Assembly (NCBI GenBank): GCA_002694745.1
Contig: NZMY01000029.1
Location: 62,001-126,000, forward strand
Direction: 5' to 3'
From: Croceicoccus sp.
Lineage (GTDB): Bacteria; Pseudomonadota; Alphaproteobacteria; Sphingomonadales; Sphingomonadaceae
DNA length: 64,000 nt
Part shown: one piece after another, positions 40,111-44,511 of the stretch
How the letters are laid out: every line of letters begins with the position of its first letter
Numbering within the stretch: the first letter of the stretch is position 1
The notes under the pieces: model-generated
What the model was told of the DNA's origin: nothing
The model's input: only the letters and a program-made list of their open reading frames with translations
Databases searched by the model: none
Translations under genes and position numbers: made by a program

Positions 40111-40189
40111 CGGCACCGGCCCACTCCCCCACCCGACCACCCAGAGTTTACCCAGCAGGGTAGTCGGGTGGGGGAGCGGGCCGGTGCCG
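40111..40189 (-). other. 32-bp stem, 15-nt loop inverted repeat in rpsL-rpsG spacer
   Basis: Left arm 40111-40142 cggcaccggcccactcccccacccgaccaccc; right arm 40158-40189; two mismatches on + become G.U wobbles in the minus-strand transcript. Confidence 0.9.
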
Positions 40190-40197
40190 CGTTGATC

Positions 40198-40569
40198 TTA
40201 CTTCGGACGCTTGGCGCCGTACTTCGAACGGGACTGCTTGCGGTCCTTCACGCCCTGCGTGTCGAGCACGCCGCGCAGCACGTGGTAGCGCACGCCGGGA
40301 AGGTCGCGCACGCGGCCGCCGCGGATCAGCACGACCGAGTGCTCCTGAAGGTTGTGGCCTTCGCCGGGGATGTAGCTGATGACTTCGCGGCCGTTGGTCA
40401 GGCGAACCTTGGCCACCTTGCGAAGCGCCGAGTTCGGCTTCTTAGGCGTGGTGGTGTACACGCGGGTGCAGACGCCGCGCTTCTGCGGGTTCTGCTCCAT
40501 CGCGGGAACCTTGGACTTGGCCTTCTGCGGCTCGCGACCCTTGCGGACCAGCTGGTTGATCGTAGGCAT
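40198..40569 (-). CDS. rpsL: 30S ribosomal protein S12
   Basis: [57 protein letters not shown]. Confidence 0.98.
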
Positions 40570-40733: not shown

Positions 40734-41028
40734 TCCGCGCTGATCTGCACCGAGGCGCATGACGAGAGCGGCGAAACTCAATTCATCGAGCCGCCTGATG
40801 GATCAGCGATGGAGGAAGGACCGTGCGGGGAAACGCGAAAAGGGCATGCGGGCCTTAAGTAAGGCCCTGCCCTGGCGATCGCCGCACGAACCGAAACGCT
40901 CCACCCGGGTCCAGCCGGGTTACTTTGACGGATAACGAGGCGCTGCCCTGTTCGGACGGGCCCCACTCACCGGCAATGTTCAGCTCTGTCCACCGGTAGG
41001 GGGTTAGCCCTGCTGGCGGTTGGCGCGG

Positions 41029-41057
41029 CCCTTAAGGGGATTCGGGGGTGGGGTCAA
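41029..41057 (-). promoter_or_regulatory. Candidate str operon promoter
   Basis: Minus strand TTGACC (41057-41052), 17-nt spacer, TAAGGG (41034-41029); same architecture as the rpsM candidate. Confidence 0.4.
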
Positions 41058-41125
41058 GGCTAGCCTTTAATTCATCTAGCCGTAAAGAAGTGCGCCATCT
41101 GATAAAAGCGGGAGGCTTATTGCCA

Positions 41126-42520
41126 ATGGGAGACCATCGCTGGAGCGACGACCTACTGAATCGAAAGGTCTTTGGTGAACACCTGATAGAATTAATGAAG
41201 TCTCGCTACGAAGCACGAAAAAGGGCAGATATCGGATCACTAATCATAAACTTAGATGCACCTTGGGGTAGCGGTAAAACGTATATTATCGAAAAACTAG
41301 CCTCTATATTAGCTGACGAGGATTATGCAGTTTCGAAAATAAACGCCTGGGAAGAAGATAGGAACAGCGATCCATTAATATTGATAATGAGCGCTATTAA
41401 TAAAACTCTAAGCGAAAAAGCCATTGGTAGTAGCAAGGCCAAAAAACTATTAGGTGACGCAAAGTCTGCCTTAGCCCCTGTTGCTATAGAGGCCGGTAAA
41501 CAAATCGGAAAGCATTTGCTTAGATCAGTTACCGGATTATCAATTGATAAATTATCCGAAGCATATTTGGATAATCAAGCCATCTCTGACGACGAAGATT
41601 TTGAAAAAGAGGCGGCGGACGCATTCGAAAAATATGTTGATGCAAAACTTCAGGCACATGAATCTGAAAAGCAGTCAATAGCGTTATTTAAGTCAAAATC
41701 ATCGAAGGCATTGGACGAGCTTTCAAAAGGAGGCATGAAACTGCCTCTTTTTGTTTTTATAGATGAGTTAGACCGATGCCATCCAGATTACGCGATAAAG
41801 CTATTAGAAAATATCAAACATGTGTTTGATATTGAGGGCTTAGTTTTTGTAATTTCAACTGACACCTTACAACTTCGAGAAGTCGTCAAGGGCTATTTTG
41901 GACAAGGTTTTGATGGTGGCGTTTATTTAAGAAAGTTTTTTGATCGAACAGTGGTTCTTCCCCCAGCATCGAATTTGGATTTTTCGCTGAAAAAATTTGA
42001 ATTGTATGGGGTGGACTTCGATAAATTAAGCCCACCAGAAGGTGTTAATATAAGTTACATTATAGAATCATGGACAAATTTTGTACATTGCTCGAGACGA
42101 GATATTGAGCAGATTGCTGAGATACTATCTAATTTTACGAACACGTGGCCATATCCCAACATAATAGATCCAGTTTCTTCTCTTATATTAGCCTCAGCAT
42201 ATTTTTTCCATCCTCACGAATTCGTTACAATGGGCCCTGGCGCCCTATTTAAGGGGTCTACCGGGCGATGGATGATTAAGGCCCCATTTTCCGATTCATC
42301 AGAAGACACGTGGTCAATATTTAATAATATAAAGTCTGATGGGAATAGACCCTTTCATTCAATAGATTTACATAAGGGTTACAGCGGAAGGTTTTTAAAT
42401 CAGGAAATGTTATCTCTAAGCGGTTCGAGTCAAAATCCTCAAGCCGAGCGATCTCGCTCGAATGAATATAGTGATTTTATTGTTGTGTCCGCAAAGTCAG
42501 TTTTAAACATAGATCACTAA
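41126..42520 (+). CDS. KAP-family P-loop NTPase (AT-rich insert)
   Basis: Walker A LDAPWGSGKTYIIEKLA, Walker B LPLFVFIDELDRCHPDYAIKLLENIKHVF, KAP-style N-terminus WSDDLLNRKVFGEHLIELM; RBS GGAGG ahead of ATG 41126 (ORF track opens at 41048); visibly AT-rich versus GC-rich flanks. Confidence 0.88.
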   Translation: MGDHRWSDDLLNRKVFGEHLIELMKSRYEARKRADIGSLIINLDAPWGSGKTYIIEKLASILADEDYAVSKINAWEEDRNSDPLILIMSAINKTLSEKAIGSSKAKKLLGDAKSALAPVAIEAGKQIGKHLLRSVTGLSIDKLSEAYLDNQAISDDEDFEKEAADAFEKYVDAKLQAHESEKQSIALFKSKSSKALDELSKGGMKLPLFVFIDELDRCHPDYAIKLLENIKHVFDIEGLVFVISTDTLQLREVVKGYFGQGFDGGVYLRKFFDRTVVLPPASNLDFSLKKFELYGVDFDKLSPPEGVNISYIIESWTNFVHCSRRDIEQIAEILSNFTNTWPYPNIIDPVSSLILASAYFFHPHEFVTMGPGALFKGSTGRWMIKAPFSDSSEDTWSIFNNIKSDGNRPFHSIDLHKGYSGRFLNQEMLSLSGSSQNPQAERSRSNEYSDFIVVSAKSVLNIDH

Positions 42521-42589
42521 TCTTTTTATTTTCCTACACCCCCTCCCCCTCATATCCCCAAGCGCCCCTCACCCAGCAGGAGCGCGTCC

Positions 42590-43660
42590 ATGTCCGGCAC
42601 ACCCCCAACCCAATCGGCCCCGCCTGAAATCCGCTTTACGCCCGTGCCTCGCGCGCGGCGGCGGAAGCTGACTGCGCGGCGGCAGCGGCAGTTCATCGAG
42701 GCGCTGGCGCGGACGGGGCTTGTTTCGGAGGCAGCGGAGGAAGTGGGGGTCAGCGTCGCGGCGCTGGAGAAGCTGCGTTATTCCGAGGCCGGGCAGAGGG
42801 CGGTGCGGGGGCTGAGCTTTCGCGCGGCGTGGGATGCGGCGCGGGGGTGCGAGGCGGCCAGGAAGGCCAGATCGGAGCGCAGGCGTTTGGGTTGCAGGCT
42901 GGCGGGGCGCAAGCTGGCGGGGCGCGGGGTCGCCGGGCGCGGTGGCTTTGGGGATGGGGGTTTCGCGGATGGCCATTTCGCGGATGGCCATTTCGCGCAT
43001 GGTGGGCGCGGGACCCTGCGCGATGCGCCGCCGGAGGTTGCGCCAGAGGTTACGCCAAAGGCTTCTGGGGCGTTTCGGCTCTCCTGCGCTTCGGCCCATC
43101 CTTCGCAGCGGACCAGCCGTGCCGCCTTTACCGGGCCGGAGCCTTCGCCGGACGATCCGCTGCTGGGGTTCAGGCCGTTCCTCCATCCCTGCCCGCGCCG
43201 GAACTCGATCACGCCCGACCGGCAGCGCGCGTTCATCGCGGCGCTCGCCGCCAGCGGATCGGTGCGGCAGGCGGCGCGCGCCATCGGGGCCAGCGTGGAG
43301 GCGCTCTACAATCTGCGCGCGCGCGGCGGGGCGGAGGAATTTGCCGCCGCGTGGGAGAAGGCCATCGACCTCGGCATCGCGAGGCTGGAGGACACGGCGC
43401 TGGCCCGCGCCATAGAGGGCGAGCTGCGCCCCGTCGTCGCGCGCGGCGAGATCATCGGCGAATACCGCGTGCATAACGAGGCGCTGGTGATGTTCCTGCT
43501 GCGCCATCGCCGGTCCCGGCGATACGGGCCGGTGCCTGAGCGCCCTGCCCCCGACGGGCCGAGCCACGGGGAGATCATGGACGGCATCATGGTCAAGCTG
43601 AGCCGCGCGAGGGAGCGCATGATCGCGGGGCTGGATCCGGTGGAGGGCGCGGCGGATTGA
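42590..43660 (+). CDS. Hypothetical protein with two HTH-like repeats joined by a low-complexity linker
   Basis: TARRQRQFIEALARTGLVSEAAEEVGVSVAALEKLR and TPDRQRAFIAALAASGSVRQAARAIGASVEALYNLR are clearly repeated modules. Confidence 0.65.
   Translation: MSGTPPTQSAPPEIRFTPVPRARRRKLTARRQRQFIEALARTGLVSEAAEEVGVSVAALEKLRYSEAGQRAVRGLSFRAAWDAARGCEAARKARSERRRLGCRLAGRKLAGRGVAGRGGFGDGGFADGHFADGHFAHGGRGTLRDAPPEVAPEVTPKASGAFRLSCASAHPSQRTSRAAFTGPEPSPDDPLLGFRPFLHPCPRRNSITPDRQRAFIAALAASGSVRQAARAIGASVEALYNLRARGGAEEFAAAWEKAIDLGIARLEDTALARAIEGELRPVVARGEIIGEYRVHNEALVMFLLRHRRSRRYGPVPERPAPDGPSHGEIMDGIMVKLSRARERMIAGLDPVEGAAD
42961..43005. repeat. 15-bp in-frame tandem repeat, about 2.7 copies
   Basis: tttcgcggatggcca tttcgcggatggcca tttcgcgcatggtgg. 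Confidence 0.85.
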
Positions 43661-43839: not shown

Positions 43840-44511
43840 ATGTCCTATACAGACACTCCGCAAGGCCAGAACCGCGGCGCTACGATCGCGACGGTCGCTG
43901 TCATCCATGCCGCGCTGGGCTATGCGCTGGTCTCCGGTTTCGGGGCGAGCGTCGTCACCGAGGTCGGCAAGACCATCAAGGCCACATTCGTGGAAAAGGT
44001 CGAGACGGTGAAGCTGGAGCCATTGCCTCCGATGGAGGCCGAACCCAGCGCCGATCCGCTGCCGACCGCGCCCGATACGGCGATCACGCTCGACCGGCCG
44101 AACAGCATCGACACCATGGTGTTCGACGTGCCCCTGCCGCCCTCGCCCCTGCCGGGCACGCACGAGATCGTCCTGCCCCCGATGCCGGTGCCGCCCGCGC
44201 CGCTGCCCGCCTATGAGGCGAAGGGCGCGGTGCCTCGTGGCAATCCGGGGACGTGGGTGACGCCGAACGATTACCCCTCGCGCGAGCTCAGGATGGGGAA
44301 CGAGGGGCTGACCCGGTTTCGGCTGGAAATCGGGGCCGACGGACGGGTGACCGATTGCACGATTACCGCGTCGAGCGGGCATCCCGGCCTTGACGAGGCG
44401 GCTTGCAAACTGGTGACGCGGCGCGCTCGGTTCGAGGCGGCGACGGGCGCGGACGGCGCGAAGACGGCGGGGCGTTACGAGAATGCGATCCGCTGGCAGA
44501 TACCCGGGTAA
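43840..44511 (+). CDS. TonB-family energy transducer
   Basis: N-terminal TM, Pro-rich spacer PLPPSPLPG...PPMPVPPAPLP, C-terminal TonB domain FRLEIGADGRVTDCTITASSGHPGLDEAACKLVTRRARF. Confidence 0.85.
   Translation: MSYTDTPQGQNRGATIATVAVIHAALGYALVSGFGASVVTEVGKTIKATFVEKVETVKLEPLPPMEAEPSADPLPTAPDTAITLDRPNSIDTMVFDVPLPPSPLPGTHEIVLPPMPVPPAPLPAYEAKGAVPRGNPGTWVTPNDYPSRELRMGNEGLTRFRLEIGADGRVTDCTITASSGHPGLDEAACKLVTRRARFEAATGADGAKTAGRYENAIRWQIPG

Follow-up and report, generated by a model that had tools for sequence, protein, structure and literature searches.

The AT-rich gene lying upstream of rpsL in our window (the whole stretch of 64,000 nucleotides of Croceicoccus DNA analysed here) is probably a stand-alone anti-phage defence gene, predicted to encode a soluble KAP NTPase of the PDC-S20 type and to represent one allele at a defence hotspot, a reading to which we assign a probability of roughly 0.7. 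The family, completeness, purifying selection and solitary architecture of the gene are established, as are the variable and defence-rich cargo of the site that it occupies and the repeated use of this site by KAP genes. As a gene, it adds a new member to an already known candidate family; its setting is less ordinary.

The KAP NTPase gene and its closest known relatives

41126..42520, forward strand: KAP P-loop NTPase (PDC-S20 type), cargo gene, 464 aa, matching PF07693, PDLC04959 and phrog_8614; start backed by the ortholog at locus L036
41258..41281, forward strand: Walker A motif, APWGSGKT (residues 45-52), with G48, G50 and K51 invariant in 36 homologs
41747..41776, forward strand: Walker B motif with DELDR signature, LFVFIDELDR (residues 208-217), with DELDRC invariant in 36 homologs

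The open frame of the AT-rich gene spans positions 41048-42520 (forward strand). Within it, the ATG at 41126 is the better start, since a ribosome-binding-like gggagg is found just upstream and the position aligns with the start of the L036 ortholog; the GTG at 41048 is an unlikely start. The resulting 464 aa fall within the range of the KAP relatives of the family (~450-550 aa), so that the protein looks full-length. The gene is single-copy in its own genome, is transcribed divergently from the str operon and has a GC content of 40%, compared with 62-65% for the surrounding locus; along the window, GC goes from ~0.62 to 0.37-0.40 in the gene and up to ~0.70 at 42.5 kb. A previous sequence-only reading of this DNA had described this sharp compositional change at both ends, as well as the orientation, the two Walker motifs (near-invariant among the 36 homologs), the solitary and cytoplasmic character of the protein and the lack of a visible integrase, all of which hold. 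Many KAP_NTPase members, though not all, carry a transmembrane insert within the NTPase domain. None is detected by hydropathy in the window protein, where the 19-residue maximum is 1.09 overall and 0.87 between the Walker motifs, values that indicate a protein devoid of transmembrane segments, and the predicted model shows a helical, soluble insert. The ORF listing around the gene contains neither a partner nor an integrase-like ORF, and a search of the locus for tRNA genes and terminal repeats yielded no tRNA and no repeats worth the name. Insertion by an integrase, at a tRNA or via terminal repeats was consequently rejected.

The PF07693 (KAP_NTPase) profile matched the protein with 116.3 bits (E 2.1e-33, against a Pfam cut-off of 20), in agreement with the KAP assignment of the sequence-only reading. 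That reading had pointed to PifA and QatA as relevant members, which turn out to be distant relatives matching the NTPase part, whereas the four top PADLOC models are all PDC-S20 (best PDLC04959, 9e-68, 227.9 bits) and the best model outside this group is QatA with 59.6 bits. Judging from these profile scores, PDC-S20 is the right family and a far better fit than either QatA or PifA. PDC-S20 is a single-gene phage defence candidate of PADLOC-DB, computationally defined and absent as a name from the literature searched; the window protein shares with it the single-gene architecture and aligns over residues 4-364, although its last ~100 residues fall outside the model. The phage protein family phrog_8614 also matches (7.5e-59). 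The likeness to QatA of the Qat system concerns the KAP NTPase part (E 5e-17 in PADLOC, 7e-18 in NCBIfam), but the 64.7 bits of the NCBIfam match are far from the equivalog cut-off of 600, the model has 628 positions against 464 aa, and none of the partner genes qatBCD is found among the ORFs of the locus. Likewise, PifA, responsible for the F-plasmid exclusion of T7, is similar in the NTPase part only (E 2e-13), with a match limited to profile positions 36-260 of 720. An AlphaFold model based on 36 sequences (mean pLDDT 78) gave, as its 15 best Foldseek matches in the PDB, chains of RdrA of the RADAR system (E 1.7e-8 to 4e-6, TM 0.40-0.47, or ~0.45 for the RdrA match), followed by other AAA+ ATPases. 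RdrA is thus the nearest solved fold, but its chains are much longer (~780-850 residues) and have no detectable sequence similarity with the window protein; a PDB sequence search with the KAP profile retrieved no useful match, and no RdrB-like deaminase occurs among the ORFs of the locus. Membership in Qat, PifA or RADAR was therefore rejected on the basis of scores, length and missing partners.

A variable cargo site upstream of rpsL

40198..40569, reverse strand: rpsL, first gene of the str operon, core flank
41029..41057, reverse strand: str-operon promoter-like element, left edge of the cargo site, with -35 TTGACC (41052-41057), a 17-nt spacing and -10-like TAAGGG (41029-41034); its promoter function is predicted from sequence
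42526..42538, forward strand: TTATTTTCCTACA, a promoter-like motif that bounds the cargo on the right and precedes the TerS-like gene by ~60 bp
42590..43660, forward strand: gene for a TerS-like helix-turn-helix protein of 356 aa, the conserved flank on the right of the hotspot, matching phrog_4044 (terminase small subunit, 3.1e-26)
43840..44511, forward strand: TonB-type energy transducer, outer flank (PF03544, 3.7e-16)

Comparison of this locus in the window and ten congeners revealed a variable hotspot, with different cargo, including defence genes, between the same conserved flanks. On the left, the invariant stretch closest to the cargo is GGGTCAA (TTGACCC in reverse complement) in all 11 aligned Croceicoccus loci. 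On the right, TTATTTTCCTACA occurs in 10 of the 11 gap loci compared, the exception being G305, where no TerS-like gene was detected at the site; up to the final A, it is also found in L036. The TonB-type gene is found in L036 and in five of the ten other congener loci. The congener cargos include OLD in G121 (1e-86), PD-Lambda-5_A in G223 (2e-67), an AAA protein with a DUF4435 protein in G293 and an AriAB-like match (9e-40), together with cargos of unassigned or other function in G303, G304, G180, G260, G307 and G038. The same site in other genera contains DRT6 (1e-122), HEC-01A/B (9e-149 and 3e-62), a ThsB TIR protein of the Thoeris type (3e-64), type II methyltransferases, an AAA protein and a PADLOC helicase, many of the PADLOC AAA and methyltransferase models being generic. 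No defence match was found among the cargos of G303, G304, G180, L103 and L136, and TonB-like and MarR-like cargos also occur, so the site is variable and defence-rich but not exclusively defensive. As in the defence hotspots of Escherichia coli and Pseudomonas aeruginosa (PMC10121019, PMC10250203), conserved core flanks enclose changing defence cargo. Here, by contrast, the cargo usually comprises one to three genes, no mobility gene is seen at most sites (transposase-like ORFs occur only in G293) and the conserved flank belongs to the TerS-like family, with several sites per genome. At the rpsL site, AT-rich cargo accompanies 17 of 18 loci with the TerS-like gene against 9 of 41 without it (Fisher p 1.6e-7), as counted with analyst-chosen thresholds for AT-rich cargo and among related genomes that are not independent.

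Some additional observations concern the edges of the site and the str operon. The right-edge motif is present twice in tandem at the rpsL site of L110 and L126, in the former together with a TerS-gene-like start that is likewise repeated, which may reflect past turnover of the cargo. On the str-operon strand, the 22-nt element AGAGCTGAACATTGCCGGTGAG (40966-40987, reverse strand) is nearly invariant in 11 congeners and its core occurs in about half of 60 family genomes. It lies within the ~490-nt str leader, which folds better than shuffled sequences (z -4.7), and has no matching Rfam family. A strong hairpin is also found between rpsL and rpsG (40111-40189); its Rfam match to mir-3138, under the gathering score and to a plain hairpin, is surely spurious.

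KAP relatives occur in 17 of 301 family genomes. Within the genus, rather than being kept in all relatives, the gene has a close homolog in 2 of 14 congeners, with one further distant relative. One ortholog, 70% identical and placed between the same flanks, is carried by L036, a contig of a metagenome-assembled genome named Croceicoccus sp. that matches congener G306; the KAP gene and the flanks are all that the two loci have in common. Between the two genes synonymous sites are saturated (pS 0.81) and pN is 0.18, a pattern of purifying selection over a long period that argues against the gene having arrived recently. The base composition fits the horizontal origin put forward in the sequence-only reading, but its claim that the gene had been recently acquired falls with this same-site ortholog in a second Croceicoccus species. 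By rpsL and rpsG, the nearest relative of the window genome is G303, which has a different cargo at the site, indicating that replacement or exchange has occurred there. In G200, which belongs to another genus, a 33%-identical KAP gene occupies the same rpsL site in inverted orientation. The KAP gene is hence neither recent nor unique at this position. In the 15 kb surrounding each of eight KAP homologs from other genera, we found in every case a lone AT-rich gene and no common partner, so that the stand-alone layout is a property of this KAP family and not an accident of the window locus.

Predicted function of the KAP protein

The hotspot location supports a defence role, and the repeated use of the site by KAP genes likewise favours a defence reading. 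Relatives are found on 46 plasmid and five phage records, all with <60% identity, and at more than 300 places in viral contigs, isolate prophages included, as expected for a mobile defence gene. By analogy with RdrA, the nearest fold to its predicted model, the KAP protein may be a ring-forming ATPase. Phage infection would cause it to assemble in an ATP-dependent manner, and its C-terminal third, which is less conserved, would sense or act on the phage or the cell, leading to abortion of the infection. Homologous recombination within the conserved flanks would serve to exchange the cargo, a route that we propose because the site bears no integrase, tRNA or repeat.

The main rival to this abortive-infection reading is that the protein mediates a PifA-like exclusion, namely that the gene is a prophage-type accessory gene left by a lost element and acting in superinfection or transfer exclusion at the entry of foreign DNA. 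PifA is indeed a distant KAP relative, phrog_8614 is a phage family and the relatives just mentioned are common on viral contigs, including those of isolate prophages, but no remnant of any phage gene was found between the flanks, the orthologous loci have only the KAP gene and the flanks in common, the protein has no membrane segment and the PifA match covers the NTPase part only; we consider such a function unlikely. Very improbable is a non-defence housekeeping or stress ATPase that would be AT-rich by chance, as its patchy distribution (17 of 301 family genomes, 2 of 14 congeners) and the alternative defence cargos at the same site outweigh the long-lasting purifying selection and the presence of some non-defence cargos that such a role would accommodate.

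The TerS-like gene beyond this site and its possible GTA link

The sequence-only reading had suggested checking whether the site is a variable hotspot, which it is; it did not see the flanking TerS-like gene and what this gene marks elsewhere. The flank protein and the paralogs tested match phrog_4044 (E 4e-11 to 3e-26). A fold search gave weak matches, with the Sf6 gp1, SPP1-like and NV1 TerS among the top 30 matches and none of them with E <0.001, and a PDB sequence search with the TerS-like profile retrieved no useful match. No large terminase gene lies beside the TerS-like gene, whose neighbours are TonB, LysR and rpsL. Paralogs are present in 162 of 201 family genomes, with up to 11 matches per genome. 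AT-rich DNA was found within 3.3 kb, on at least one side, at 36 of 40 paralog loci (L162-L201) against 0 of 20 arbitrary loci of the same genomes (p 2.5e-12) and, counted by genus, in 23 of 25. The stretch read includes lepA at nine of these loci, and the vicinity of lepA is a second common TerS-like cargo site of the family. Among 48 AT-rich ORFs at paralog loci, matches include a dGTPase (8e-139), type I and type II methyltransferases, reverse transcriptases, capP, PD-Lambda-5_B, SEFIR and GmrSD, besides ORFs of no assigned function; as these matches are tallies, they yield no overall fraction. An IMG/VR 'viral' contig with a TerS-like gene (L307) was rejected as evidence for a phage, since methyltransferase-like ORFs and no recognised virion genes surround the gene; it looks like misbinned chromosomal DNA, and additional scans of viral sequences with TerS-like queries gave no match. 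The literature searched contained no description of a defence hotspot flanked by a TerS-like gene, and the recurring pairing of this gene with defence-like cargo across the family appears to be new.

The edge motif provides a second line of association. In seven congeners, TTATTTTCCTAC occurs in 3-7 copies per genome (0 for a reversed-form 12-mer control), usually ~60 bp before an ATG (L301-L337). The Croceicoccus genes that it precedes encode TerS-like proteins, a DUF6456 protein, GTA_holin_3TM (1.3e-29) and Phage_lysozyme, as well as a parB-like gene and a small conserved ORF. At 22 of 40 TerS-like paralogs its core, ATTTTCCTAC, is found with at most one mismatch in the 300 bp upstream, compared with one match in 80 control stretches. 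In the window genome, two more AT-rich cargo blocks, L154 (G000:C15:92047) and L161 (G000:C45:1537), end at the motif, the first of them with what by eye is a SocA/Panacea-like gene pair.

DUF6456 is the annotation of gafA, the activator of the gene transfer agent (GTA) (PMC9638019, PMC9765227), and in Rhodobacter GafA binds its own promoter and the lysis promoter (PMC6363796). These data would accommodate an addition to the defence reading, rather than an alternative, in which the site and the TerS-like gene belong to a GTA-linked system: the TerS-like protein would be produced together with the late GTA genes and would mark or package the adjoining DNA, so that defence cargo spreads to relatives and is swapped by recombination. 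The AT-rich DNA beside TerS-like genes across loci and genera, the promoter-like motif common to the TerS-like, gafA-like DUF6456, GTA holin and lysozyme genes, and the phage-driven lateral transduction of chromosomal defence genes known elsewhere (PMC12829572) are in line with it. Against it, RcGTA has no packaging specificity (PMC6854486), the TerS fold assignment is weak, and the evidence is one of association and not of mechanism. Moreover, none of the 16 GTA head-tail clusters of the family examined carries the motif, which led us to reject it as a promoter for the entire GTA cluster, the genus lacks GTA_TIM and TIGR02218 is missing from this assembly (it is present in two congeners), so that the GTA link of the motif is partial and correlational. 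We regard this addition as quite improbable, and GTA machinery moving the cargo is speculation. A broader formulation, which we hold to be rather improbable, is that each genome of the Erythrobacteraceae maintains several sites for defence cargo, all of them anchored by domesticated TerS-like genes under a promoter common to the GTA activator and lysis genes, and that the TerS-like proteins bias packaging or recombination of the neighbouring DNA, so that GTAs or a GTA-like process would exchange defence cargo of a single gene, of which the KAP NTPase is an example.

To test whether PDC-S20 works as a stand-alone defence system, the KAP gene would be a candidate: it is short, complete and conserved, and genes of its kind have come to this hotspot on more than one occasion. 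The TerS-like flank, in turn, offers a search handle that finds defence-like cargo across the family without knowing the cargo beforehand and, if its link with GTA regulation is functional, it would help explain how chromosomal defence genes are exchanged without any mobility gene.
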